From Polynucleobacter asymbioticus (lineage in GTDB: Bacteria; Pseudomonadota; Gammaproteobacteria; Burkholderiales; Burkholderiaceae), in assembly GCF_018687575.1 (NCBI RefSeq), contig NZ_CP061297.1:1246821-1310820 (forward strand): a stretch of 64,000 nt of DNA. The letters run 5' to 3'. The notes below the pieces were generated by a model. The model worked only from the letters and a program-made list of their open reading frames with translations, was not told the DNA's origin and did not search any database. A program made the position numbers and the translations under genes. Shown piece by piece: positions 19,779-31,802 of the stretch. Numbering within the stretch: the stretch's first letter is position 1; each line of letters starts with the position of its first letter.

Positions 19779-19803
19779 AAAAATTACCAAGAACTGGTAA
19801 TGA
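19779..19803 (-). terminator. Terminator of the exporter/suy-like operon
   Basis: On the minus strand ATTACCA-GTTCT-TGGTAAT forms a hairpin followed by seven T's. The stop codon of the YeiH-type exporter gene lies in the right arm. It would end the minus-strand operon running from the dehydrogenase to the exporter. Confidence 0.7.
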
Positions 19804-20776
19804 AAATTAAGCCGATTGCCGCAATAAATAAAGTTTCAACAACTAACATCACCACTGGCTGCCAACCCAATTTGGCCAACTCTTGAAAATTGGTTTTTAG
19901 TCCGGCTGCACCAATAGCAATTACCAGCATCCAACGAGAAATATCGCCAATAGAATGTGTTGCTGAACTTGGCAAAATCTGCATGGATGCAACAACTGAT
20001 AAGGCAACAAAACCCAATAAGAATGTTGGTATCAGGCGCAAGCTGCCCCACCCTAAGCGTTGAGATGATTTTTCAGCTCCAAAGAAAATGGAGATAAACA
20101 AAACAACAGGTAGCAGCAGAGCTACACGGAAAAGCTTCACAACGGTTGCAACGTCACCCGCCTCAGGCCCAAACAACATACCTGCAGCAACCACCTGCGC
20201 TACATCATGAATCGTTGCCCCTAAGAAGATGCCCGCTGGCAAAGCAGTGATATTCAATAACTGCAAGGCAAAGGGATAAACAACCATGGCAATAGTAGAA
20301 AGGACTGTTACCCCCACCACTACCAGCAATGTAAATCGCTCATTCTCTTTTGTTTTGGGAAGAACAGAGGCAACAGCTAACGCAGCAGAGGCTCCACATA
20401 TACCAACAGATCCACCTGCAATCAAACCGAAGTCGGGAGAGAGCTTTAATAGTCTCGCAAGGAAAAATCCAAGCGTTACCGTAGCTGCAACCGCAAACAT
20501 CACCATTAATCCGGTATTCAAACCAATTGCACCAATATCTGCAAACGTAATACGAATGCCCAGAAACGCAACGCCTAATCGCAATACTGTTTTTGCGCAG
20601 AAATCGATTCCTGGCTTAACAGTCTCATTGAGGTATAAAAAATGAAGTGATAAGCCTATTAACAAGGCATAGAGAAGCTGGGGTCCACCATAATTCTCGG
20701 AGAGAAAGCTGGTGGACATGGCGATGACAAGACAAACCAACAGCCCTGGGATATTTTTGCGAGCAGTAATGAACAT
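19784..20776 (-). CDS. suyZ: YeiH/SuyZ-type putative sulfate exporter
   Basis: 330 residues, a hydrophobic protein with about 9-10 transmembrane helices of the UPF0324/YeiH family. Characteristic stretches include LRLGVAFLGIRITFADIG, LIAGGSVGICGASAALAV and GATIHDVAQVVAAG. SuyZ, described beside suyAB in Paracoccus as the putative exporter of sulfate made during cysteate/sulfolactate breakdown, is of this type. Here too it is last in an operon with SuyAB-like genes and a GntR regulator, 5 bp after the regulator. The symbol is by context. E. coli YeiH itself has no proven substrate, so sulfate or sulfite export is inferred. Confidence 0.7.
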   Translation of the reverse strand: MFITARKNIPGLLVCLVIAMSTSFLSENYGGPQLLYALLIGLSLHFLYLNETVKPGIDFCAKTVLRLGVAFLGIRITFADIGAIGLNTGLMVMFAVAATVTLGFFLARLLKLSPDFGLIAGGSVGICGASAALAVASVLPKTKENERFTLLVVVGVTVLSTIAMVVYPFALQLLNITALPAGIFLGATIHDVAQVVAAGMLFGPEAGDVATVVKLFRVALLLPVVLFISIFFGAEKSSQRLGWGSLRLIPTFLLGFVALSVVASMQILPSSATHSIGDISRWMLVIAIGAAGLKTNFQELAKLGWQPVVMLVVETLFIAAIGLIFITSSW

Positions 20777-20781
20777 CTAGG

Positions 20782-21501
20782 CTAGGCCACTAACTCACTA
20801 AAGTACTCATGTTGGCTCGTATTCAGAGTGGAGACACGCCACTCCAAGGGTTCATCCTGAATACCCAGCGCCACCCTTCTGATCACCAATACAGGCGAAT
20901 CCGGATTTAATCCAAGCCATTCTGCATGTTGCTTACCAGCAAGACCAGCGCGCAAACGTTCACTGCTTCGCACAACAGTCTGGCCGTATTCCATTTGATA
21001 CATCTGATAAATACTTCCCTTGCGCTCAATAAAATCGGCGCGGGTTAAATTTTTGAACCGCTTTTTATCTAGCGTGATCTGATCGATCATCACGCACTGG
21101 CCCTCCAATGAGAGCCGATTGGTAATTCGCCAAACTGGAGAGCCTTCTTTAATCTGCAGCTTGCCAGCCTCTTCTTTATTGGCAGCTGCTGTATTTAATG
21201 AGACTAGCTCAACCTTGGGATAAACCTTCTTTTCAACGTCATGCTTTACGACATGAAAAAAGTAATACAACAGTCTTTTGAGATCATGCTCAACAACATA
21301 GGTGCCCCTGCCTTGGCGCCGGACCACGATACCTTCCGCGACTAACTCATCCACTGCCTTGCGCAGGGTTCCTATTGATACATCTAACTCTTTCGATAAA
21401 TCCTTTTCGGCAGGCAAAGCCTGCCCCATAGGATATCGACCCCTGACCAGATCCTCGGTGATCTTCTGCTTGACTTCTTGATAAGCGGTCAGGTTTCTCA
21501 T
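20782..21501 (-). CDS. GntR family regulator with UTRA ligand domain (SuyR-like)
   Basis: 239 residues. An N-terminal winged helix (residues 1-70: YPMGQALPAEKDLSKELDVS, then IGTLRKAVDELVAEGIVVRRQGRGTYV) is followed by a UTRA/HutC-type ligand domain (about 90-235) ending in VLVIRRVALGIQDEPLEWRVSTLNT. UTRA domains bind small carboxylates or sugars that release the repressor. It is encoded between the lyase (10 bp) and the exporter, so it very likely controls this operon and may bind the 30-bp palindrome at 24151-24180. Confidence 0.85.
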   Translation of the reverse strand: MRNLTAYQEVKQKITEDLVRGRYPMGQALPAEKDLSKELDVSIGTLRKAVDELVAEGIVVRRQGRGTYVVEHDLKRLLYYFFHVVKHDVEKKVYPKVELVSLNTAAANKEEAGKLQIKEGSPVWRITNRLSLEGQCVMIDQITLDKKRFKNLTRADFIERKGSIYQMYQMEYGQTVVRSSERLRAGLAGKQHAEWLGLNPDSPVLVIRRVALGIQDEPLEWRVSTLNTSQHEYFSELVA

Positions 21502-21510
21502 GCTAGAGAC

Positions 21511-22683
21511 TTAAGCTGATTCGTATAAACGAGTTAATACGAACTCACGATGGCCAAGAATCTCTGAGGCAGTCAATTCACCATCGGCTGTGCGCTTTAA
21601 GCACTCCAACAGTTTGTTGCCTGCATCGTCCATATTCTCTTCGCGACGCAATAAGCCAGAGACGTCAACGTCAATGTGCTCACCCATTGTGCGAACAGTC
21701 TTTGGATTTGCGCAAATCTTAATTACTGGAAGAATTGCATTACCAATGACGTTACCCTGCCCTGTTGGGAAGAAGTGAGCCGTGAAACCAGCTGCTGCGC
21801 ACAAAGTCACCATTTCAGCGGCTGCTGATGATGAGTCCATAAAGTGAAGCCCAGGAATGGTTGGCTCTTCACCCTTATCCAGCACGCTATCCACAATACA
21901 TTTCTTACCAATTTTTTGGATATTGCCTAAGGCCTTCTCTTCGATGGTTGTCAAACCGCCCGCAATATTGCCTTTTGTTGGCTGAGAATCAGATAAGTCA
22001 CTTGTCTTATGACGCTCAATCACATCCTGGTAGCGATCAAACATCTCGCGGAATTTTTTCTTGACCTCAGGAGTACGGCAACGCGCTTCAACTAAATGCT
22101 CGCCACCAGTTAACTCGGTAGTTTCACCGAATACCAAGGTAGAACCAATTCCATACAACTTATCAAAGGCATCACCTACGGTTGGGTTTGCACCGCAACC
22201 AGAAGTGGTATCAGACTCACCGCACTTGGTGGAAACCCACAACTCTGAGAGAGGAGCGGAAACACGTTTTTGCTTAGACGCATGCTTCATCATGCTGTAA
22301 GCAGCTTTACTGGCGGAGGCAATCGTCGCTGTATCGCCATTGCCCTCAATCCAGAAGCCCTCAACTGGCTTGCCTGATGCCTTGATGCCATCAACAATGA
22401 TTTTTGTCCACTGTGGCTCAATACCAATGACCACTACAGCGGCTACGTTTGGATTGCAACCTGTTCCAATCAAAGTACGGAAATGCAAATCCAAGTCGGC
22501 TCCAAACTGTAAACGACCATAGGAGTGAGGAATTGCCATGGTTCCTTTGATATTGTTTGCTACTGCCTCACAGGCTGCATTAGACAGGTCGTCTAAAGGC
22601 AAAATCAATACATGATTACGAATACCCATGCGGCCGTTTTCACGGCGATAACCTAAAAAGGTCGCGTCTTTCAAATTAGTCAT
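21511..22683 (-). CDS. suyB: UxaA-family lyase large subunit, probable (R)-sulfolactate sulfo-lyase beta
   Basis: 390 residues of the altronate/galactarate dehydratase C-terminal family, without the N-terminal SAF domain, which is a separate gene here. The metal/Fe-S site region is [20 protein letters not shown] (residues 151-170); other Cys are at TGCNPN (residue 76) and KKCIVD. SuyAB cleaves (R)-3-sulfolactate to pyruvate and sulfite. Size (about 390 aa), the split gene and the YeiH/SuyZ-type neighbour support SuyB. Altronate or another sugar-acid dehydratase remains the alternative, since family motifs are shared. The N-terminal [19 protein letters not shown] is typical of both. Confidence 0.7.
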
Positions 22684-22725
22684 TTTTTATATCTCTTTCA
22701 ATGAATAGGTAAATAAGGTGCCGGA

Positions 22726-23007
22726 TTACCAGCGCTTAGTTTTTACGTTTTGGACGTGAAGGTGCTCGCCTTTTTTGATTGGAGCTACTACCTTGCCAAT
22801 ATCAACGCCGTATTTCATGACAGTGTCGCCTGGCTTGAAATCGTTCAATGAAATTTTGTGACCAATAGGAATATCACTTTCAGACTTGATATTTAAGGTG
22901 AGATCACCATCCATAACCCAACCAATCAAATCAGTACCAGCTTTTACACCCTCAACCACAACTACACCTACGCCATCTGCTGGCTCATGCACGACAAAGT
23001 GGATCAT
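22726..23007 (-). CDS. suyA: UxaA-family small subunit (SAF domain), probable sulfolactate sulfo-lyase alpha
   Basis: 93 residues forming a single SAF domain: HEPADGVGVVVVEGVKAGTDL, GHKISLNDFKPGDTVMKYGVDIGKV and GEHLHVQNVKTKRW, the last being the typical G-x-x-V-H-x-H/Q-N motif. In UxaA/GarD this domain is fused to the front of the lyase; in SuyAB it is a separate small subunit. It precedes suyB by 42 bp, so it is the alpha subunit of the same enzyme. Confidence 0.72.
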   Translation of the reverse strand: MIHFVVHEPADGVGVVVVEGVKAGTDLIGWVMDGDLTLNIKSESDIPIGHKISLNDFKPGDTVMKYGVDIGKVVAPIKKGEHLHVQNVKTKRW

Positions 23008-23040
23008 TACTATCTCCTCAATAATCTCATTTATAAAAAA

Positions 23041-24051
23041 CTACTTAGTCCATGACTGGCGAATACCAGCCTGAATTTCTTCTACAACAACATCAGAAAC
23101 TGTTACCCCGCCTTTAAAACCGGCAGCGCGCTGTTGAAAACGGCGCTGACCAGGTAGGCGGGTTCCCGCATCTGCACTTAATTCCCTCAAGAAGTCTTGA
23201 ATGCGATTGGCAAAAATAGTGGGGCCTGCCAAACCAGGATCAATAGTTAAGATCAGTTGACCAATGCGTGGGCGATTTCCTTTGGGGTCAAAAAAGGAAT
23301 CTGCCTCATAGGAAAATCTGCTGCCTGAGAGACCAACTACTAGTAATTCAACGATCAAGGCAAGCAAAGCACCCTTATCACCACCCAAGGGAACCATTAA
23401 GCCCTGAAGACCTTCCTGCGGATCGGTGGTTGGCTTACCGTCAGCGGTCAACGCCCACCCCTCCGGGATTTTTTGGCCATTTTTTGCCGCCACCAATAAT
23501 TTTCCACGGGCAACTGCTGAAAGCGACATATCAATCACTAGCGGATCGGCAGCATCAATTGGAAAAGCTGCGGCCAAGGGATTGGTCCCAAACATCGCTC
23601 TTGCACCGCCAACCATGGGCATTGCGGCTGGAGTATTTCCAAACAACAAAGAGATATATCCCGCCCTTGCTGCAGCCTCAACGTAATGTCCCGCAACACC
23701 AAAATGATGGCTATTAGTTACTGCCACCAAACCAAGGCCATTTTTTGAGGCTAAATTTACTGATAGGTCTGTAGCAAAGCGAAGTGCTGGAAAGGCCAAT
23801 CCATCGCGCGCATCAACCAAAGCGGCTGAAGTTTTAAATGGTCTTACCTTAAGCTTAGGCGCCAATTCAATACGGCCATTTTTAGCATGTCCGGCGTATT
23901 GCGCCACTCTAGCCAATCCATGCGATGCGAGACCATCTAGCTCGGCTAAAGCCAAAAATTGAGCTGTTTCATGGGCCGCCTTAGGGTCTAAGCCAGCAGC
24001 CTTCAGACCCGAATCTGCCAAAGTCAGTATTTCAGAGTAGGTGAGATTCAT
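23041..24051 (-). CDS. Ldh/ComC family NAD(P)H-dependent 2-hydroxyacid dehydrogenase
   Basis: Start taken at ATG 24051, with RBS AGGA 8 bp upstream, giving 336 residues (an in-frame TTG at 24066 has no RBS). The protein belongs to the malate/L-lactate/L-sulfolactate dehydrogenase family (MdhA, ComC, YbiC), which has its own NAD-binding fold. Visible family stretches are VTNSHHFGVAGHYVEAAARAG, MFGTNPLAAAFP and VPLGGDKGALLALIVELL. ComC is (R)-sulfolactate dehydrogenase. As first gene of the operon with suyAB it probably interconverts sulfolactate and sulfopyruvate (perhaps to racemise it with a partner); malate or lactate are alternatives. Confidence 0.75.
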   Translation of the reverse strand: MNLTYSEILTLADSGLKAAGLDPKAAHETAQFLALAELDGLASHGLARVAQYAGHAKNGRIELAPKLKVRPFKTSAALVDARDGLAFPALRFATDLSVNLASKNGLGLVAVTNSHHFGVAGHYVEAAARAGYISLLFGNTPAAMPMVGGARAMFGTNPLAAAFPIDAADPLVIDMSLSAVARGKLLVAAKNGQKIPEGWALTADGKPTTDPQEGLQGLMVPLGGDKGALLALIVELLVVGLSGSRFSYEADSFFDPKGNRPRIGQLILTIDPGLAGPTIFANRIQDFLRELSADAGTRLPGQRRFQQRAAGFKGGVTVSDVVVEEIQAGIRQSWTK

Positions 24052-24066
24052 GCGTAGATCCTGCAA

Positions 24067-24353
24067 TCATGAGCAATCAAAGTCCGCCCTTCAAAACACA
24101 GGGTTTTAGGGGCTTGACTTAGTCGATTGTTAGGGATCAAAATAGAGCACATATCTGAATCATATAGATGATTTAGATATCTTGCAAGAACCAATTCATT
24201 GTGCGGCGCAACGAATACAAAGCGGTGCTTCAGGATGGGCGGGGGAGACAGTAGTGACATATAAGCATATAACTATTAAATCGCAGTTGAGTATGTTTTT
24301 TTGATAACTAAGTAACTAAGATACAAAGATCAAATTTCCACTGGAGGTCACCG
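24067..24353. promoter_or_regulatory. Divergent promoter region of the suy-like operon and Bug gene
   Basis: 287 bp with no convincing gene. It holds the 30-bp palindrome and, near the right end, the repeat AACTAAGTAACTAAGATA (24307-24324) just ahead of the Bug gene's GGAGG RBS (24342-24346). A 70-codon minus-strand frame crossing it (24048-24260) looks like a chance ORF. Confidence 0.5.
24151..24180. promoter_or_regulatory. 30-bp near-perfect palindrome (operator candidate)
   Basis: ATATCT-G-AATCAT at 24151-24163 is inverted as ATGATT-T-AGATAT at 24168-24180, with centre ATAG; only position 7 and the centre are off. It lies in the 287-bp divergent region between the dehydrogenase gene (minus) and the Bug protein gene (plus), about 100 bp from the first and 175 bp from the second. 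Its length suits a dimeric regulator such as the GntR/UTRA protein of this operon. Confidence 0.55.
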
Positions 24354-25340
24354 ATGTTTAAGATTCAAAAATATAAGTTGAGTAGACGTTTAGTTTTAAT
24401 AGCTGGGGCACTTACCCTGGCACTACCCCAATTAGCGACAGCACAATCTTGGCCAACAAAGCCAATTAAATTAATCATTCCATTTGCAGCCGGCGGTACC
24501 ACTGACATTCTTGGTCGACTCTTAGCTCAACAACTAACAAAGGATCTAGGGCAAAACGTTATTGTTGAAAACAAAGGTGGTGCCGGTGGAAATATCGCGG
24601 CAGAATTTGTGGCTCAAGCCCCTGCTGACGGCTATACCATCATGCTTGCATCAGGCAGCATGCTTACTGTGAATCCTAATTTGTATAAAAAATTACCTGT
24701 TAATTATGCAAAAGACTTTGTTTACATCACCAACGTAGCAAGTGGTCCAATGTTGTTATCAGTAAGTACAAAATTACCTGTTAAGAATTTCGGTGAGTTT
24801 ATTGCCTACGCAAAAACCAAGGACCTGAACTTTGGCTCAGCTGGAATCGGTAGCCAGGTTCATATGGCGGGTGAGAATTTGACTTATGCCGCCAACATTC
24901 CAGCAACGCATGTTCCATATAAAGGTGAGTCTGCCGCAATTAATGATTTAGTCTCTGGTCAAATTGACTTCATGGTGGGCAACCTGACCGCGGCAACTGG
25001 CTTTGCTAAGAATGGTCAAATTAAACCATTGGCTGTAACTAGTGCTAAACGCGTCAAACAGTTACCAGACATTCCAACTGTTGCTGAATCTGGCATCCCT
25101 GGATTTGAGAGCACCGGTTGGTTTGGCTTAGTGGCACCAGCAAATACACCAAAAGCAATTACCGAGAAAATCTATGATGCCACTGTAAAAGCGGTGAGTT
25201 CCGAAGCTATGAAAAAGAGTTTGGACCTTAACGGTTTAACAGCCGTTGTCAATAATCAAAGAGACTTTGAAGCTCAAGTGAAGGCCGAGTCAGCCTCATG
25301 GGAGAAGGTTATTAAGGGTCGCAATATTAGCGCTCAGTAA
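24354..25340 (+). CDS. Bug family periplasmic substrate-binding protein (TctC-type)
   Basis: 328 residues with a Sec signal peptide (cleavage near residue 30, at TAQSWPTK) and the Bug/TctC fold: WPTKPIKLIIPFAAGGTTDILGR, NKGGAGGNIAAEFVAQAPADGYT, VPYKGESAAINDLVSGQIDFM and GWFGLVAPANTP. Bug proteins bind carboxylates for tripartite tricarboxylate transporters or act as sensors. No TctA/TctB membrane genes are nearby, which is common in Bug-rich Burkholderiales, so the permease must be elsewhere. A strong GGAGG RBS and divergent placement suggest co-regulation with the suy-like operon; the ligand might be sulfolactate or a dicarboxylate. Confidence 0.88.
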   Translation: MFKIQKYKLSRRLVLIAGALTLALPQLATAQSWPTKPIKLIIPFAAGGTTDILGRLLAQQLTKDLGQNVIVENKGGAGGNIAAEFVAQAPADGYTIMLASGSMLTVNPNLYKKLPVNYAKDFVYITNVASGPMLLSVSTKLPVKNFGEFIAYAKTKDLNFGSAGIGSQVHMAGENLTYAANIPATHVPYKGESAAINDLVSGQIDFMVGNLTAATGFAKNGQIKPLAVTSAKRVKQLPDIPTVAESGIPGFESTGWFGLVAPANTPKAITEKIYDATVKAVSSEAMKKSLDLNGLTAVVNNQRDFEAQVKAESASWEKVIKGRNISAQ

Positions 25341-25407: not shown

Positions 25408-26160
25408 TTATGTAATTTGCCTCAGCAATAACATGGAACCAGAAAATACCAATATGGATCCATAGGCGATACGCATAGAAGCATTGCTCAGCTTAGTGTG
25501 GACATGGGAGCCCACCCAAATTCCCAAGAACGTCACTGGCATTAAGCAAACCGCAAGGCCAAGCACCTCCCAACTTAAGATAAGCCCCGTAACCAACATT
25601 AATGCGAGCCGCAAAAATGTCAGCATAAAAAGAATGAAGGCCATAGTTGCGCGCAGCACCTTTGGATTGGCAATTCGTAAACCAAGGTAGGAAACGTACA
25701 GCGGGCCACCAGTAGCAAATAGAGCAGTAAATACACCCCCAAAGAAGCCGGCAGGTATTGCCCACCATCTACTAATGGGATCGAAAGTTTCTACATTTCT
25801 CTTCACCAATACGCGCAGGCCATTGATGGCTGCAAAAATACCGAGAACGAGTAGTAAAGGCTCACCTGGTGCCTTCACCAATAAAAAGATACCTAAGACC
25901 ATCCCGACCAAGCTACAAGGGAATAGCCACTTTAATTCTTGGGTATTCGCATCGCCAGATGACTTTCTGCCGATATACAGCGCTGCACACATATCGATGA
26001 TGACCATCATCGGAACCACAGCTTTGAGAGGGTATATCTGTACCAGCAAGGGGACGGCTACTATTGATGAGCCGAACCCGGAAACTCCAAAGATAAAAAA
26101 TGCGCAAAGAACAATAACTGCTGCTAACGCAAATGAAGCTGGTTCAATTAATTCAAAAAT
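25408..26160 (-). CDS. TSUP (TauE/SafE-like) permease, probable non-canonical ATT start
   Basis: The first canonical start in frame (TTG 26049) would cut away the first transmembrane helix and the family's N-terminal motif. Reading upstream, the frame stays open and encodes ELIEPASFALAAV, then FGVSGFGSSIVAVPLL, clearly homologous to TSUP proteins. The only sensible start is one of two ATT codons (26163 or 26160), 4-8 bp after AGAGG at the end of the upstream flavoprotein gene. This gives about 250 residues and 7-8 helices, the usual size. TSUP members export sulfite, sulfoacetate or other anions. Whether ATT is used or the gene is damaged is uncertain. Confidence 0.65.
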   Translation of the reverse strand: MFELIEPASFALAAVIVLCAFFIFGVSGFGSSIVAVPLLVQIYPLKAVVPMMVIIDMCAALYIGRKSSGDANTQELKWLFPCSLVGMVLGIFLLVKAPGEPLLLVLGIFAAINGLRVLVKRNVETFDPISRWWAIPAGFFGGVFTALFATGGPLYVSYLGLRIANPKVLRATMAFILFMLTFLRLALMLVTGLILSWEVLGLAVCLMPVTFLGIWVGSHVHTKLSNASMRIAYGSILVFSGSMLLLRQIT

Positions 26161-26162
26161 AA

Positions 26163-27881
26163 TTAAGCCTCTACCAAAATAGTTTCACCAGGTTTAATCA
26201 TCGTAAATTGAACTGGTTTATTTTTAATCATAAGCCCATCTTTACCCAACTGAACTGCAGTGAAGTAAGACTCCTCCAAAGAGCCGGGTTGAGGAAAATC
26301 ATCGCGATAATGAGCGCCCCTCGAGTTTTCTCTAGAGAGGGCAGCCTCTGTTACCGACTTACTTACCAAGATGAGATTACTTAAATTCATCCAATCTTGC
26401 CAGGTAATGCTGTATTCCCTCTGAATGTCGCCGACCCCCATTTGATGCAATTGCTGATCCAGTTGATCGAGCTTCACCCGGGCACGCAATAAACTTTCTC
26501 TCGTTCTAGAAATGCCCACATCATCCCACATACATTCTGCTAAGGCATCGCGGATCGCTTCAATATCTCCTGCCGGCTTCTCCAGTGGAGCCTCATGCGC
26601 CTGAATGCTGGCATGAACCTCATCCATATTGCATTCATGCAAACTCCGGGACGTTACCCAATTCGCCATTTCTTCACCGGCAATACCACCGAATACCGTT
26701 GAGTTAGCTACGCCATTACCACCCAGACGATTTGCACCGTGTACACCACCAGTATCCTCGCCTGCTGCAAATAGACCTGGCAACTCAGTACTGCAATCTG
26801 CCTTAAAAATCAAACCACCCATCATGTAGTGTGCAGTTGGAACAACCTCCACAAGATCTCCGGCTAAATCAAAGCCGCTATCGGCGCATCGCTCAACCAT
26901 GCCCTTGAATTGCTTACGAACATTATCTGGGCCAAGGTGACTCATCTGAATATAGACACCACCATTCGGTGTTGCTCTACCCGCCCTGATTTCAGAATTA
27001 ATGGAGCGCGAAACAATGTCTCGTGTAGCACGCTCATTGCGAGGATCATAGTTACCCATAAATCGCTCGTGATTGCCATTGAGTAAATATCCGCCTGCAC
27101 CGCGCAAACCTTCCTCAAGAACGGTTCCGGTCATCCTGGTGCCAGGCCCTGCCAACATGCCTGTTGGATGAAACTGCACCATCTCCATGTCACGCAGAGT
27201 GAGTCCAGCGCGCAGTGCCATAGCCAGGCCATCACAACTCTTGTCACCTGAGGGGGTGTGGTACTTGTACATTGTGGGCCCGCCACCAGTAGCCAAAAGC
27301 ACTGCTTTAGCTCTTACTAGCGTGAACTCACCAGTCTGCATATTCAGCATGAGCACTCCAGCTAAGGACTTACCGTCAGCACTATGAATTAGCTCAACCG
27401 CCCTATGCTCCTCAAGGCGATGGATTCCTCTGGCCCATACTTGCTCAGCAAGGCGACTAATAATTTCAATACCAGTCAAGTCACCTTTATGGACTGTGCG
27501 ATCGAAGGTTTGGCCAGCGAATGCCTTTTGATGCACTGTTCCGTCTGGATTGCGATCAAAGAAACAACCAAGCTCATTTTCAAGCTCATGAATACGTTCA
27601 ACTGCTTTGTTTACCAGTGTCCAGGCTAGCTCTTGGTCTGATAACCATTTGCCACCTTCAATCGTATCCATAAAATGGCGCTCAACTGAATCGCCCTCTG
27701 CCAAAGCGACGTTGTAGCCGCCTTGAACCATTCTGGTACAACCACACTTACCAAGCAGACCTTTTACAGCGATGGTGATGTGAAGATCTGGATTGGTTTG
27801 GTGGGCGTGCAGTGCTGCAAAAAGCCCTGCTCCACCAGAGCCTAAGATCAGGATGTCGGTTTCAAGAGTGGTAATGCTCAT
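26163..27881 (-). CDS. FAD-dependent succinate dehydrogenase/fumarate reductase-type flavoprotein
   Basis: 572 residues of the SdhA/FrdA family. It has the FAD fingerprint ILGSGGAGLFAALHA (residues about 11-25), the flavinylation-site region in VHKGDLTG, catalytic VQFHPTG with Arg of RxTG-type, DIVSR and PTAHYMMGG, and FAAGEDTGGVHGANRLGGNG. The ATG overlaps the stop of the fumarase beta gene by 4 bp. With the iron-sulfur and two cytochrome b-like subunits of the same operon it should form a membrane quinone-linked complex. Because the operon also carries a class I fumarase, it probably acts as succinate dehydrogenase or on a related dicarboxylate. Confidence 0.85.
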   Translation of the reverse strand: MSITTLETDILILGSGGAGLFAALHAHQTNPDLHITIAVKGLLGKCGCTRMVQGGYNVALAEGDSVERHFMDTIEGGKWLSDQELAWTLVNKAVERIHELENELGCFFDRNPDGTVHQKAFAGQTFDRTVHKGDLTGIEIISRLAEQVWARGIHRLEEHRAVELIHSADGKSLAGVLMLNMQTGEFTLVRAKAVLLATGGGPTMYKYHTPSGDKSCDGLAMALRAGLTLRDMEMVQFHPTGMLAGPGTRMTGTVLEEGLRGAGGYLLNGNHERFMGNYDPRNERATRDIVSRSINSEIRAGRATPNGGVYIQMSHLGPDNVRKQFKGMVERCADSGFDLAGDLVEVVPTAHYMMGGLIFKADCSTELPGLFAAGEDTGGVHGANRLGGNGVANSTVFGGIAGEEMANWVTSRSLHECNMDEVHASIQAHEAPLEKPAGDIEAIRDALAECMWDDVGISRTRESLLRARVKLDQLDQQLHQMGVGDIQREYSITWQDWMNLSNLILVSKSVTEAALSRENSRGAHYRDDFPQPGSLEESYFTAVQLGKDGLMIKNKPVQFTMIKPGETILVEA

Positions 27882-28489
27882 GACGGAATTCCTAGACTCT
27901 TTAATACAGCCTCTTTATTTCGAGCAACATCGCTTTTTACCTCTTGATAAATACTGCCGCCATGACTATCCATAGCGACTAATAGAGGGCCAAAGTCTTT
28001 AATCTTAAAACGCCAAAGTGACTCTGGATTGAGATCGTCCATATCAACATCTTCAATCTGCTCGATCCAGGTTGTTTCTAGTGCTGCCGTACCGCCAATG
28101 ATTGCAAGATACACACCACCAATTTCCTGGAAGGCTGCAGCAGATCCTTCGCGCATGCCACCCTTACCCACAATCATTCGTACGCCATTTTGAGTCATCA
28201 AGGGATGTGTAAAACGCTCCATACGATCTGATGTAGTAGTACCAATACAAATCGGCTGATATCCTGCCGGGAACCCCTCACTGACAGGGACCTTGCGCAC
28301 ATTCGGAGCCGTATGAATGACCGCGTGCCCATTAAGATCAAATCGGGTTTTTCTGCCCTTATCAAATAAGTGGATCTGCGTAGCATCCCGAATACCAAAC
28401 AAGGTGTTTTGCAAAGTCACCGTGTCATTAATGCGAAGCTTACGAATGTCAGCTTCGCTAACAGGAGTTGGAAGGTTGTAGTGGGCCAT
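27878..28489 (-). CDS. Class I fumarate hydratase / L-tartrate dehydratase beta subunit
   Basis: 203 residues of the FumA C-terminal/TtdB family. It has PVSEADIRKLRINDTVTLQNTLF near the start, and further on PICIGTTTSDRMERF, VGKGGMREGS and WRFKIKDFGPLLVAMDSHGGS. It supplies part of the active site of the two-subunit enzyme with the alpha subunit encoded 8 bp upstream. Sequence alone does not distinguish fumarase from L-tartrate dehydratase (TtdAB) or mesaconase activity. Operon context with an SDH-like complex favours fumarate or a methyl-substituted analogue. Confidence 0.8.
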   Translation of the reverse strand: MAHYNLPTPVSEADIRKLRINDTVTLQNTLFGIRDATQIHLFDKGRKTRFDLNGHAVIHTAPNVRKVPVSEGFPAGYQPICIGTTTSDRMERFTHPLMTQNGVRMIVGKGGMREGSAAAFQEIGGVYLAIIGGTAALETTWIEQIEDVDMDDLNPESLWRFKIKDFGPLLVAMDSHGGSIYQEVKSDVARNKEAVLKSLGIPS

Positions 28490-28497
28490 CTTTATTC

Positions 28498-29373
28498 CTA
28501 GAATCCGTAAGTCACACCGTCAGGCGTGAAAGTTGCTCGCGCCCTGCGAGCAGAATGGCACTGCATATTCACTGCGACAGGATTTAAGGTGATATGCGTG
28601 TGAGCAAGTTCTACATGAACAGCAAATGCCGTACCATCACCACCTAAACCTTGGGGACCAATGCCCAGCTTGTTCACAGCGGCAGTCAACTCCTGCTCCA
28701 ATTTAGCACCCTCTTCATCGCTGCATACACTACCCAATGCTCTTGTGGCAGCTCGCTTAGCCATCGCAACACATTGTTCAGATGTGCCGCCAATACCAAC
28801 CCCCACAATGGTTGGGGGGCAGGTCTTGCCTCCAGCAGATACAACGCTCTCTATAACAAAGGCTTTAACACCATTAATTCCATCAGCAGGAATGGCCATC
28901 TTTAAAAAGGAATTATTTTCCGAGCCACTTCCTTTGGGAACCATCTCAATCTCAAGCATTTGGTCATCGTCACAAAAATCAATACTGATTGCAGGCATAT
29001 CAATGCCGCAGGAAGTGTGATTATTTTTACGTGTAATAGGATGGACAACTGAGGAGCGTAGTGGATATTCAGTAGTTGCACGCTCACAGCCTTTGCGAAT
29101 AGCTGCCTTAAGCTCCATGCCATCAAGCTGAACATTGCGGCCAATCTTGACTTTGTAAATAGGTAAGCCAGTATCTTGGCAGAGAAGGTTATCCTCGCGC
29201 TCAGCTACTGAAATATTGGTGATCATCGTTTTTAAGACAACCTGGGCACGCGCATCGGACTCACCTTGATTTAAACGCTCAATACCAGCCTTCACATCAT
29301 CTGGCAGAACTTTTAAAGCACGGATATAGAGCTCCTTACAAGCCTCTTCAACTGCTTTCATTTGTAACTGCAT
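28498..29373 (-). CDS. Class I fumarate hydratase / L-tartrate dehydratase alpha subunit
   Basis: Start taken at ATG 29373 (291 residues); an in-frame TTG at 29385 is less likely. The protein carries the [4Fe-4S]-binding cysteines of class I fumarases in LLCQDTGLPIYKVKIG, HTSCGIDMPAI and GKTCPPTIVGVGIGG, and the PKGSGSEN motif. These oxygen-sensitive enzymes hydrate fumarate to malate or dehydrate L-tartrate. It follows the cytochrome b subunit gene by about 12 bp. Dependence on Fe-S assembly fits the ISC operon in the window. Confidence 0.83.
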   Translation of the reverse strand: MQLQMKAVEEACKELYIRALKVLPDDVKAGIERLNQGESDARAQVVLKTMITNISVAEREDNLLCQDTGLPIYKVKIGRNVQLDGMELKAAIRKGCERATTEYPLRSSVVHPITRKNNHTSCGIDMPAISIDFCDDDQMLEIEMVPKGSGSENNSFLKMAIPADGINGVKAFVIESVVSAGGKTCPPTIVGVGIGGTSEQCVAMAKRAATRALGSVCSDEEGAKLEQELTAAVNKLGIGPQGLGGDGTAFAVHVELAHTHITLNPVAVNMQCHSARRARATFTPDGVTYGF

Positions 29374-29385
29374 CGCATTACCCAA

Positions 29386-29745
29386 TCAGTTTGCTAAATA
29401 CAAAAATAGAAGGCCACAAGCTATGCCGAATAAGATGGCTGCTTGCGTCCAAGCCTTACGAAGGCCGCGCCACGGACCAAACTCAATCATGAGCAGTCGA
29501 ATGCCACCGACCAAATGAATGGCTAGCAAAATAACGAGAGCCCATTCACCAAATTTGAATATCCAAAAATCAGTTAGACCTAAATAGCGCTCAAAGCCAC
29601 TAGCTCCACGTAATGACTGAGAAAGCATTAAGAAATGCAAAGGAATAAAACAAGCTAATAACAAGCCAGAGAAACGATGGCATGCGAAGGCAAAATAAGA
29701 GAGATGACTTTTTGCGCGTAAATCGAGTGTTGGCCTAGATCTCAT
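29386..29745 (-). CDS. Succinate dehydrogenase/fumarate reductase cytochrome b-type subunit (second)
   Basis: Start taken at ATG 29745, which overlaps the previous stop (ATGA); earlier in-frame starts lie inside the upstream gene. The 119-residue protein has three transmembrane helices (about 15-40, 56-80, 95-117). It contains CHRFSGLLLACFIPLHFLML and LLAIHLVGGIRLL, with His residues suitable for heme b or quinone binding, typical of SdhC-like subunits. It anchors the complex with the neighbouring 116-aa subunit. Confidence 0.75.
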   Translation of the reverse strand: MRSRPTLDLRAKSHLSYFAFACHRFSGLLLACFIPLHFLMLSQSLRGASGFERYLGLTDFWIFKFGEWALVILLAIHLVGGIRLLMIEFGPWRGLRKAWTQAAILFGIACGLLFLYLAN

Positions 29746-30092
29746 GGAGTACCTCCGGTATAGAGGCCAATCACCGCTGTAGTTCCGAGAATAATAATGA
29801 GAGCCCCTAGGATCCAAGATAGCGCCTTGGAAACAAATCCCTTGCAACATGTTTCTTCGAGAATATTAGCCAATCCAATAGGTGCATGCACAAAACAGGC
29901 CAAGACAAAAATCTCATAAAAAATAGCAAAGGCGATATTGCCTTGGGTGCGCCCCAAGATCTCTTCAGCGGTTAAGCCGCCTCGAATTGCGTAGAAAATA
30001 ATCATGAGATGAATTGCCACGCACAGGCCCAAAACCATTGCACTAATTCTTTGGGCATACCAAAGTTTCGCCTGCAATACTCCTTGGCTCAT
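29742..30092 (-). CDS. Succinate dehydrogenase/fumarate reductase cytochrome b-type subunit (first)
   Basis: 116 residues with three predicted transmembrane helices and the pattern YAQRISAMVLGLCVAIHLMIIFYAIRGG, where Arg-Ile-Ser and His are typical quinone/heme-site residues in Sdh/Frd anchors. The ATG overlaps the stop of the iron-sulfur gene by 4 bp. Together with the next gene it likely forms the membrane anchor. Confidence 0.75.
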   Translation of the reverse strand: MSQGVLQAKLWYAQRISAMVLGLCVAIHLMIIFYAIRGGLTAEEILGRTQGNIAFAIFYEIFVLACFVHAPIGLANILEETCCKGFVSKALSWILGALIIILGTTAVIGLYTGGTP

Positions 30093-30820
30093 AACTTACC
30101 CCACTTGCTGCCACGCACTGCAGCCCTGGCTACTAGTTTCTTAAGACCAGCAATGCTGGCTGTAGGTTCCAGCTTCTTGGGACAGCGCTCAGTACAAGAT
30201 CCCTGCGTATGACATGCATGACAACCTTCATCACCAGCAACAGCACGCAGGCGATCCAATTGCTGCACATCACGCACATCGTTTGTTAGTGTCCAAGCAC
30301 GATTCAGGGCTGCAGGGCCAAGATAGTTGGGGCGCTTTTCAACAACCTCACAAGAGGAATAGCAAACTCCACAACCAATACATTCGATGCCAGCATTAGC
30401 CAACTGGCGCTCAATCGATTCTGGCTCTACTTTCGCAAAATTATCATGACGTGTTTTATCGCCCTTGAAGAAACCGACAGCACCTTTCCACTTGTTAAAG
30501 AACTCTCGCATATCTGTTGCAAGATCTTTAATGACAGGAAGATTATTTAAGGGTGCGATCTCAAGTGAGTCACCCTCCACAATCTGAGAAACGTGCGTGC
30601 GACATGTCCAGCGAGCAACGCCATTCACTGTCATAGCGCAAGAACCACACATACCAACTCGACAAGCGAAGCGATAACTTAGGGTTGGATCGAGCTTGCG
30701 CTGAATATAGGTAACAACATCCAGCACCGTTTGATTTGGATTTCGAGGCACCAAATACTCAACAAACTCACCTTCTTGAGCACCGCGCCAGACTTTGACT
30801 TTGAGATCTACATTGGACAT
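30089..30820 (-). CDS. Succinate dehydrogenase/fumarate reductase iron-sulfur subunit
   Basis: I use ATG 30820 (MSNVDLKVKVWRG), 243 residues; the open frame runs 44 codons further, but that part has no protein-like pattern and overlaps the LysR gene. Clusters are visible in order: [2Fe-2S] CRVGMCGSCAMTVNG with a downstream CRTHV, then [4Fe-4S] CIGCGVCYSSCE and CHTQGSCTERCP. It transfers electrons from the flavoprotein to the quinone site. It is first in the seven-gene minus-strand operon and is separated from the LysR gene by 82 bp. Confidence 0.87.
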   Translation of the reverse strand: MSNVDLKVKVWRGAQEGEFVEYLVPRNPNQTVLDVVTYIQRKLDPTLSYRFACRVGMCGSCAMTVNGVARWTCRTHVSQIVEGDSLEIAPLNNLPVIKDLATDMREFFNKWKGAVGFFKGDKTRHDNFAKVEPESIERQLANAGIECIGCGVCYSSCEVVEKRPNYLGPAALNRAWTLTNDVRDVQQLDRLRAVAGDEGCHACHTQGSCTERCPKKLEPTASIAGLKKLVARAAVRGSKWGKL

Positions 30821-30902: not shown

Positions 30903-31802
30903 ATGCCTAGCATCCGAGTACTCAAAAACTTCCTGGCCATTTCAAGACACAAGAGCGTGGCGGCGGCTGCACGTGAGATAGGTCTTACGGCTGCCGCTGC
31001 GGGTCAGCAATTGCAGCAATTAGAGGCAGATATTGGTGTTGAGCTTTTTGACAGAACCAAGCGCTCTATGACCTTAAATCATCATGGCAGAGCCTTAGTT
31101 GAGCCAATCCAAGAAATCATCGCACGCTATGAAGCCTTGGGCTCTGACTTTAAATCTGAACTTAGCGGAACTATTGTTCTAGGTGCCCTCGTTTCAACCT
31201 TAATGGGAGCATTTGGAAACACATTGAATGAGCTCAAGCAGAACTACCCAGAACTCGAAATCAAACTCATTGCAGGTCTTTCGAATAACTTTCTTGATCA
31301 GGTAATTGAAGGCAGTCTAGATGCGGCGATTGTGACCGAATCCCCCTACGCATTACCGCAGAACATTCAATGGACGGAGTTATATACGGAGCCAATGGTT
31401 CTCATTTCTCCGGCCCGCACCAGCAAAAAAGGCGCTACACCCAAAGAGATTGCCAATGAACTGCCATTTATGCGCTTCGAAAGAAATACTTGGACAGGTC
31501 ACCTAGTAGATCAAACTATTCGAGCAAACAAACTCAGCATTAAAGAAGGCATGGAACTCAATTCAGTTGAGGCGATTATTGAACTTGTCAGACAGGGACT
31601 TGGGTACTCAATTGTTCCCAAACTTGCCAATGTATCCTGGGATAACGATCGCCAACTCAAAATCTCCGCACTCCCCGGCAAAACGATTTTCCGAAAAGTG
31701 GGTTTGCTGGAAAAACGCAAACACTCACGTGAAAATATCACCCAAGAAATTAAAAAGTACTTCCTAGATGAGGTATCTGCAAAAAGAAAAGCCACCCCTT
31801 AG
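30903..31802 (+). CDS. LysR family transcriptional regulator
   Basis: 299 residues. The N-terminal winged helix (residues 1-60: VLKNFLAISRHKSVAAAAREIGLTAAAAGQQLQQLEADIGVELFDRTKR) is followed by a LysR substrate-binding domain from about 90 to 290. It is divergent from the sdh/fum-like operon with an 82-bp gap, so it most likely controls that operon in response to a pathway intermediate. The ligand is unknown. Its stop lies within a short hairpin (31789-31810). Confidence 0.87.
   Translation: MPSIRVLKNFLAISRHKSVAAAAREIGLTAAAAGQQLQQLEADIGVELFDRTKRSMTLNHHGRALVEPIQEIIARYEALGSDFKSELSGTIVLGALVSTLMGAFGNTLNELKQNYPELEIKLIAGLSNNFLDQVIEGSLDAAIVTESPYALPQNIQWTELYTEPMVLISPARTSKKGATPKEIANELPFMRFERNTWTGHLVDQTIRANKLSIKEGMELNSVEAIIELVRQGLGYSIVPKLANVSWDNDRQLKISALPGKTIFRKVGLLEKRKHSRENITQEIKKYFLDEVSAKRKATP

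Follow-up and report, generated by a model that had tools for sequence, protein, structure and literature searches.

Two neighbouring operons of Polynucleobacter asymbioticus as a candidate pathway from 3-sulfopropanoate to pyruvate and sulfite

The window analysed here, a 64,000-nucleotide stretch of the Polynucleobacter asymbioticus genome (RefSeq assembly GCF_018687575.1, contig NZ_CP061297.1, positions 1,246,821 to 1,310,820), carries a suy operon, which includes genes for a predicted sulfolactate sulfo-lyase (SuyAB), and next to it a block of frd, ttd, and tauE genes. We lean, if only slightly, towards the view that these two neighbouring operons encode a single C3-sulfonate pathway that would mimic the citric acid cycle, starting from 3-sulfopropanoate. 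The suy operon itself appears to be of a known type; the new part is the frd/ttd block, whose products are candidates for the missing upstream steps of 3-sulfopropanoate breakdown. Gene content, membership in the SuyB family, linkage, co-occurrence, and a conserved palindrome are seen directly in the DNA, and the enzyme substrates, directions of transport, and regulation given below are predictions.

Exchange of a carboxylate for a sulfonate group turns succinate, fumarate, malate, and oxaloacetate into 3-sulfopropanoate, 3-sulfoacrylate, 3-sulfolactate, and 3-sulfopyruvate, respectively. Genes for an Sdh-like complex and a fumarase-like hydratase lie near those for the predicted sulfolactate lyase and dehydrogenase, a combination that suggests this sulfonated series. 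In the proposed route, a membrane-bound FrdABCD-like complex would convert 3-sulfopropanoate to 3-sulfoacrylate, with the electrons passing to quinone, and a TtdAB-like class I hydratase would add water to form 3-sulfolactate. Addition of water as in fumarase would produce L-sulfolactate, designated (R) under the nomenclature rules, so that a hydratase with this stereochemistry would deliver the substrate of SuyAB; (R)-sulfolactate is reported to be the form that SuyAB cleaves. SuyAB would split it into pyruvate and sulfite, and the ComC-like enzyme would interconnect (R)-sulfolactate and sulfopyruvate. The direct path to (R)-sulfolactate would explain a genome without a clear slcC gene. Sulfite would be exported by SuyZ and TauE, and a Sox system may oxidize it. 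For comC-suyABRZ, the probable repressor is the GntR/UTRA protein, acting at a palindrome (24151-24180); the frd/ttd operon would be under the control of a LysR protein.

SuyAB belongs to the UxaA/GarD superfamily and is encoded by separate small-subunit (suyA; 22726..23007, minus strand, 93 amino acids) and large-subunit (suyB; 21511..22683, minus strand, 390 amino acids; PF04295 and PF20629) genes. SuyB is 74% identical to SuyB from the hps/suy cluster of Cupriavidus pinatubonensis HN-2. Its relatives on plasmids comprise 13 records at 59-76% identity, the next one listed being at 42%. The close named relatives of SuyB are from Polynucleobacter. In a tree of 15 proteins, 9 SuyB rows, which include proteins from hps/suy clusters, form a group with 100/100 support that excludes Escherichia coli UxaA, E. 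coli GarD, and the host's own fused GarD-like protein. Four cysteine columns are common to the two E. coli proteins; the SuyB rows retain one and lose three. The available excerpts of PMC6336799 describe four cysteines, presumed iron ligands, as conserved across the superfamily except in sulfolactate sulfo-lyase, and the loss seen in SuyB would be in line with this description if those four columns are its four cysteines. SuyA has no match in Pfam; it matches the N terminus of the galactarate dehydratase model of NCBIfam and is 57% and 62% identical to the SuyA proteins of C. pinatubonensis HN-2 (locus L003) and Caballeronia (L005), respectively. Family naming by Pfam and NCBIfam takes SuyB only as far as galactarate/altronate dehydratases, as would be expected of a sugar-acid dehydratase without sulfo-lyase activity. 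Such an enzyme is highly improbable in view of the tree, the identity gap (at least 59% versus 42%), the lost cysteines, and the gene neighbourhood, which includes a sulfite exporter and ComC here and hpsN, hpsO, and slcC next to suy in other genera. Grouping of SuyB with altronate or galactarate dehydratases, which the initial annotation had regarded as fatal to its proposal, is seen neither in the tree nor in the cysteine columns, and SuyAB is very probably an (R)-sulfolactate sulfo-lyase. The nearest neighbour of the SuyB group in the tree, with weak support, is a UxaA-type protein from Variovorax (L007), where a split UxaA-type pair (41-42% identical to SuyB) is encoded together with a hydroxyacid dehydrogenase, TctC, and Ldh.

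The suy locus consists of five open reading frames at 19784-24051, all on the minus strand, in the order comC-like, suyA, suyB, GntR/UTRA regulator, and YeiH-type exporter. The frames are open, and the intergenic gaps are only 5 to 42 bases, which makes a single operon likely, as the initial annotation had it. Its family assignments were likewise recovered: PF02615 in the ComC-like dehydrogenase of the Ldh2 family (23041..24051, 336 amino acids from the ATG, with an alternative TTG start possible 15 bases upstream; predicted to act on (R)-sulfolactate/sulfopyruvate), PF04295 and PF20629 in SuyB, PF00392 and PF07702 in the SuyR-like regulator (20782..21501, 239 amino acids), PF03601 (229.9 bits) in the SuyZ-like exporter of the YeiH family (19784..20776, 330 amino acids; predicted to export sulfite/sulfate), and the galactarate dehydratase N terminus in SuyA. 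Of 20 Polynucleobacter loci selected among the 89 genomes with SuyB, 19 retain the core comC-suyA-suyB-suyR, and the arrangement is therefore not due to chance; in the twentieth (G050), suyB is shortened. The exporter gene is found beside the core in 13 of the 20. On sequence evidence, the initial view of this locus, an operon for (R)-sulfolactate sulfo-lyase in a betaproteobacterium of the freshwater type, appears to hold.

Comparison with suy loci of other bacteria reveals both shared and distinct features. In C. pinatubonensis HN-2, genes for HpsN, HpsO, a major facilitator superfamily carrier, a dehydrogenase, and SuyAB follow in series, a layout similar to the hpsRNOUPsuyAB cluster named for this species in the available excerpts of PMC11382572. 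The Paracoccus versutus locus contains suyAB, a GntR gene, a sulfate-exporter-family gene, a HisD-type gene, a short-chain dehydrogenase/reductase gene, and a sulfite oxidase gene; in tblastn searches with the Cupriavidus genes, the HisD-type and short-chain dehydrogenase genes proved to be HpsN-like (60%) and HpsO-like (51%), respectively. As in P. versutus, an exporter and a GntR regulator accompany suyAB in the window. In Chromohalobacter, the gene order is presumably slcC-comC-suyAB. In contrast to the known suy operons of Cupriavidus, Paracoccus, and Chromohalobacter, the Polynucleobacter operon has its regulator gene inside and the frd/ttd/tauE block next to it, and the genome lacks an HpsN orthologue as well as a clear slcC gene.

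The frd/ttd/tauE block, which had gone unnoticed in the initial annotation, is located on the minus strand between tctC and a divergent LysR-family gene (30903..31802, plus strand; assigned by profile search). It encodes an FrdB/SdhB-like iron-sulfur subunit (30089..30820; TIGR00384 above cut-off, PF13085), with an ATG at 30820 in a frame that stays open to 30952; an SdhD-like membrane anchor (29742..30092; TIGR02968, under cut-off); an SdhC-like cytochrome b subunit (29386..29850; TIGR02970 above cut-off), whose true start is probably near 29745; and an FrdA/SdhA-like flavoprotein (26163..27881), the predicted flavoprotein subunit of a 3-sulfopropanoate dehydrogenase, assigned from profiles, identities, alignment, and co-occurrence. 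The complex thus shares the four-subunit architecture of succinate dehydrogenase/fumarate reductase. The FrdA-like protein scores 437.9 bits against TIGR01812, under the cut-off of 567.3 bits, and is 34-35% identical to E. coli FrdA/SdhA versus 50-81% within its own family. The predicted 3-sulfoacrylate hydratase has the same two subunits as the E. coli L-tartrate dehydratase TtdA/TtdB, at 33-34% identity. Its alpha subunit, TtdA (28498..29385; placed by NCBIfam, tree, and identities), exceeds the cut-off of PRK06246 (312.8 versus 276 bits) and that of TIGR00722, as would the alpha subunit of a two-subunit class I fumarase; TtdB (27878..28489; NCBIfam scan and identities) scores 140.5 bits against TIGR00723, under its cut-off of 145.15 bits. 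In a tree of 17 rows, TtdA proteins fall into groups A and B, parted by a 98/98 branch; the window protein is of type A, and the type-B hydratase belongs to other FrdA clusters. The last gene encodes a TauE/SafE-family exporter (25408..26049; PF01925, with the N terminus and relatives considered); its frame is open for about 45 codons further upstream without ATG, GTG, or TTG. Interrupted copies are seen within the genus: frdA, ttdA, and tauE are affected in G034 (L131) with suy intact, suyB, frdA, and ttdA together in G050 (L142), and a stop codon lies within frdA in G132.

SuyB is encoded in 89 of 186 Polynucleobacter genomes (as fragments only in 5 of the 89), in 69 of the 144 good-quality ones, in 59 of 299 genomes drawn from the family, and in 15 of 398 drawn from the phylum. 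FrdA and SuyB are found together in 75 of the 186 genomes of the genus, SuyB only in 14, FrdA only in 4, and neither in 93. Co-occurrence within the genus could be due to neighbourhood alone, and the association was therefore tested outside it. Type-A TtdA is present in 29 of the 299 family genomes, representing 9 genera, and 28 of these 29 also encode SuyB (16 of 17 outside Polynucleobacter). A single contig carries both genes, no more than 13 kb apart, in 27 of these 28 genomes; the remaining genome, G391, is assembled into approximately 500 contigs and has them on separate ones. The gene order varies by genus, with frd/ttd upstream or downstream of suy and in either orientation, and with slcC and a dicarboxylate symporter gene present or absent. 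Because Fisher tests of co-occurrence ignore relatedness, the argument rests on the number of genera and the varying gene orders. Among 17 loci picked from the 47 SuyB-positive genomes of other genera, 9 contain frd/ttd genes, and type-A TtdA is found in 16 of the 47 overall. A wider collection of 84 loci, some of them short, comprises L003-L006 and the best 80 of at least 576 confirmed hits in a ranking by similarity to P. versutus SuyB; FrdA is found in 5 of these 80 (mostly alphaproteobacterial by title, some short stretches).

These data bear on a simpler interpretation, in which suyAB forms an ordinary sulfolactate (or cysteate-derived) operon and frd/ttd is an independent dicarboxylate module, for fumarate, tartrate, or a similar compound, within the same genome island. 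TtdA does pass the fumarate hydratase alpha cut-off of NCBIfam, a separate LysR gene diverges from the frd operon, which lacks the palindrome, and the adjacency within the genus makes co-occurrence explicable by shared inheritance. Nevertheless, an independent module is rather unlikely, given that the linkage with suyAB holds in 9 genera despite the varying gene orders and that FrdA relatives on plasmids without SuyB are found near sulfite exporters, two of them near sulfite dehydrogenases (the strain of one such plasmid carries SuyB on another plasmid). The phylum draw adds little: of its 398 genomes, 2 encode type-A TtdA, and these are Polynucleobacter genomes that also encode SuyB. The linkage of the frd/ttd/tauE block across genera suggests that a further substrate is used.

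This substrate could also be sulfosuccinate, converted through sulfofumarate to sulfomalate, which would then be oxidized and decarboxylated toward sulfopyruvate or desulfonated directly. The same enzyme chemistry suits a sulfonated C4 diacid, and genes for sodium:dicarboxylate symporters are present in many of the frd/ttd-suy clusters. We know of no established natural source of sulfosuccinate. Its use would require an extra decarboxylation, no gene-level pathway is found among the listed matches in the open-licence PMC literature, and the published hint, in the available excerpts of PMC11489063, concerns 3-sulfopropanoate instead. Sulfosuccinate is accordingly an improbable substrate, and 3-sulfopropanoate is preferred.

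Relatives of FrdA on plasmids comprise 18 records at 49-70% identity, followed by a gap down to 35%; 10 of these records, one more record, and one stretch of Rhodococcus jostii RHA1 were examined. A TauE or YeiH-type exporter is encoded near FrdA in all 9 annotated plasmid stretches, and tblastn searches of the three unannotated stretches reveal a TauE relative of 32-35% identity in two Cupriavidus records and none in R. jostii RHA1. All 3 plasmid records with TtdA of at least 60% identity also carry SuyB. A single stretch of Methylobacterium oryzae contains frd, ttd, tauE, suyAB, a dicarboxylate symporter gene, and slcC-like and comC-like genes. In M. nodulans, soxC adjoins the FrdA cluster, and in Pseudomonas sp. 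MPC6, a sulfite oxidase gene is present. Type A, represented by its alpha or beta subunit, is found in 11 SuyAB loci (L086, L179-L181, L184-L189, and L200) and type B in 8 plasmid clusters (L201-L205, L208, L209, and L229), among which SuyB of at least 59% identity is present on the same plasmid only in P. versutus. A relative of the coenzyme A-acylating (methyl)malonate-semialdehyde dehydrogenase is encoded in 3 of the 8 (L201, L202, and L229). Type B also lies beside hps genes and suyAB in four alphaproteobacterial loci (L008, L043, L054, and L071), so the split between the types, with type A at SuyAB, is not strict.

These patterns point, tentatively, to a wider scheme with two parts, which we consider jointly possible but somewhat doubtful. 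In the first, bacteria would possess a sulfonated copy of the succinate-fumarate-malate segment that mineralizes 3-sulfopropanoate, with the Frd-like complex and type-A TtdAB supplying SuyAB. In the second, the same Frd-like complex would be paired with type-B TtdAB, which would add water to the sulfonated carbon, so that sulfite is lost and malonate semialdehyde is left; clusters L202, L201, and L229 are possible cases of this direct desulfonation. A thiamine-diphosphate enzyme, similar to acetolactate synthase and far under the cut-offs, recurs near FrdA (L200:10739-12364, L204:4317-5918, and several other loci). Two haloarchaeal plasmids (L206 and L207) encode FrdA and FrdB, TauE, an argininosuccinate-lyase-like protein, and a split UxaA-type pair that is 33-35% identical to SuyB.

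Several observations weigh against a pathway from 3-sulfopropanoate, a proposal that rests on sequence comparison. In the FrdA family, the E. coli SdhA residues H242, E255, R286, H354, and R399 are kept (14 members displayed of 21 aligned). However, in all 14, including the window protein, the covalent-FAD (flavin adenine dinucleotide) His45 is replaced by Cys, which needs explaining; loss of this histidine may lower the flavin potential, as in E. coli mutants. Likewise, Thr254, which we take to be a carboxylate-binding residue, is Glu in all 14, and a negatively charged side chain would be no obvious binder of a sulfonate. Plain fumarase activity is possible for type-A TtdA, which exceeds the fumarate hydratase alpha cut-off. 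Type-A TtdA is missing from 31 of the 59 family genomes that encode SuyB, which makes the frd/ttd block an optional feeder at most. In G379, the sole type-A TtdA genome of the family draw without SuyB, no SuyB match is found anywhere in the assembly. Its frd/ttd/tauE/comC/slcC cluster reaches the contig end, with the slcC match beginning 1.2 kb from it, and in G233 (L223), of another genus and with a similar gene order, dctA and suyBA follow at that place; SuyB of G379 may have been lost in an assembly gap or may be truly absent. TtdA proteins at least 80% identical to the alphaproteobacterial L086 protein are common in Rhizobiales (by record names), among which the suyAB neighbourhood was checked only at L086 and in the Methylobacterium plasmids. 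The R. jostii RHA1 stretch encodes FrdA and TtdAB, and tblastn finds no TauE/YeiH relative in it. No 3-sulfopropanoate importer was identified. The palindrome was not found ahead of frdB, so an operator common to both operons was rejected and a common regulator is unsupported.

In addition, the ComC-like and SuyZ-like proteins both fall under their NCBIfam cut-offs. The best NCBIfam model for the former is L-sulfolactate dehydrogenase (NF040650; 209.1 bits versus a cut-off of 500 bits), and its first two matches in the PDB are piperideine-2-carboxylate reductase and the L-sulfolactate dehydrogenase 2x06, in this order; it is 38-50% identical to suy-linked ComC proteins versus 28% to another Ldh2 of the genome. 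The exporter reaches 139.9 of the 232.6 bits required by TIGR00698, satisfies PF03601, and is 44% identical to the exporter adjoining suyAB in P. versutus (L004).

Relatives of the GntR/UTRA regulator, at 29-47% identity, are encoded near suyAB in other genera. Its candidate operator, located between comC and tctC (24151..24180), is an imperfect inverted repeat of 13 nucleotides (92%, one mismatch) with a 4-nucleotide spacer and contains a 17-base core that is invariant across 12 aligned loci. No second copy with up to 3 mismatches is found in the window, and none in shuffled sequences. Within the genus, the exact inner half-site pattern is shared by 22 of 30 loci in the set L088-L117, which includes incomplete ones, and by 11 of 20 in the set L123-L142; it is found in none of the loci outside the genus. 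In part of the genus, the palindrome probably serves the GntR/UTRA protein as its operator. Scores from promoter-like and terminator-like scans are within the range of shuffled sequences and are not counted as evidence.

The initial annotation had also suggested the use of 2,3-dihydroxypropane-1-sulfonate. This proposal is rejected: the closest counterpart of HpsN encoded by the genome is only 31% identical and is probably histidinol dehydrogenase. For slcC, the genome contains three matches at 31-37%, versus 48-62% for SlcC proteins near suyAB elsewhere, and hence no clear orthologue; three loci of the genus (L192-L194) have SlcC-like genes of 39-50% near suy. The statement that the window encodes no SorAB-like sulfite dehydrogenase is borne out, as the only two PF00174 proteins of the genome, a SoxC and an MsrP, are both encoded outside it; neither is a SorA, and SoeABC was not searched for. 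The question of whether sulfite is exported or else oxidized by enzymes encoded outside the window is partly settled by a set of sox genes at another site of the genome, the export itself being predicted. The single sox cluster (C1:971.8-979.0 kb; L120:5782-12932) consists of soxC, a cytochrome gene, soxY, soxZ, soxA, soxX, soxB, and a gene for an ArsR-type regulator. The products of soxA, soxB, soxC, soxX, soxY, and soxZ all score above the NCBIfam cut-offs; the cytochrome at the place of soxD has only weak cytochrome matches. Proteins that appear YeeE-like by eye are encoded nearby. The Sox system could oxidize sulfite. Across the genus, soxC is found in 82 of 89 SuyB-positive versus 72 of 97 SuyB-negative genomes, with partial and interrupted copies counted, a weak association that is uncorrected for descent.

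Divergently from comC, the window encodes a TctC-family solute-binding protein (24354..25340, plus strand; PF03401) that might take part in sulfonate uptake; its gene adjoins comC in 19 of the 20 sampled genus loci. A second part of the host genome, a single contig of 1,838,368 bases, encodes the fused GarD-like dehydratase, an Ldh2-type dehydrogenase, and a TctC protein (C1:503.6-510.0 kb; L122:7641-14021). Nearby genes include two whose products were identified by visual inspection, an SMP-30-like protein and a GntR regulator; this region perhaps encodes a separate sugar-acid pathway. The TctC genes at 24354-25340 and L122:13050-14021 are both away from permease genes, and the only two TctA permeases of the genome are encoded elsewhere.

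According to the available excerpts of PMC11489063, Enterococcus gilvus and, judged by their genes, other Firmicutes convert plant sulfoquinovose to 3-sulfopropanoate, which is also formed from homotaurine; the genes for its formation are known, Bilophila wadsworthia uses it as an electron acceptor, and its degradation by bacteria is described as previously unreported. The same excerpts cite a thesis according to which Roseovarius nubinhibens breaks down homotaurine by way of 3-sulfopropanoate, sulfoacrylate, and sulfolactate. The chemistry of this route matches the gene set of the window; it is known here from that one citing sentence, which names no genes for comparison. In the partly sampled open-licence PMC literature, no gene assignment was found for 3-sulfopropanoate breakdown or for sulfoacrylate, no paper was found on Polynucleobacter together with sulfolactate, and a search for Polynucleobacter together with organosulfonate found two papers, both with titles on Cupriavidus. 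The locus supplies candidate genes for an aerobic 3-sulfopropanoate route in culturable organisms, a question that can be addressed with two purified enzymes. Polynucleobacter is an abundant genus of freshwater plankton, and with this locus it would join the likely users of C3 sulfonates.

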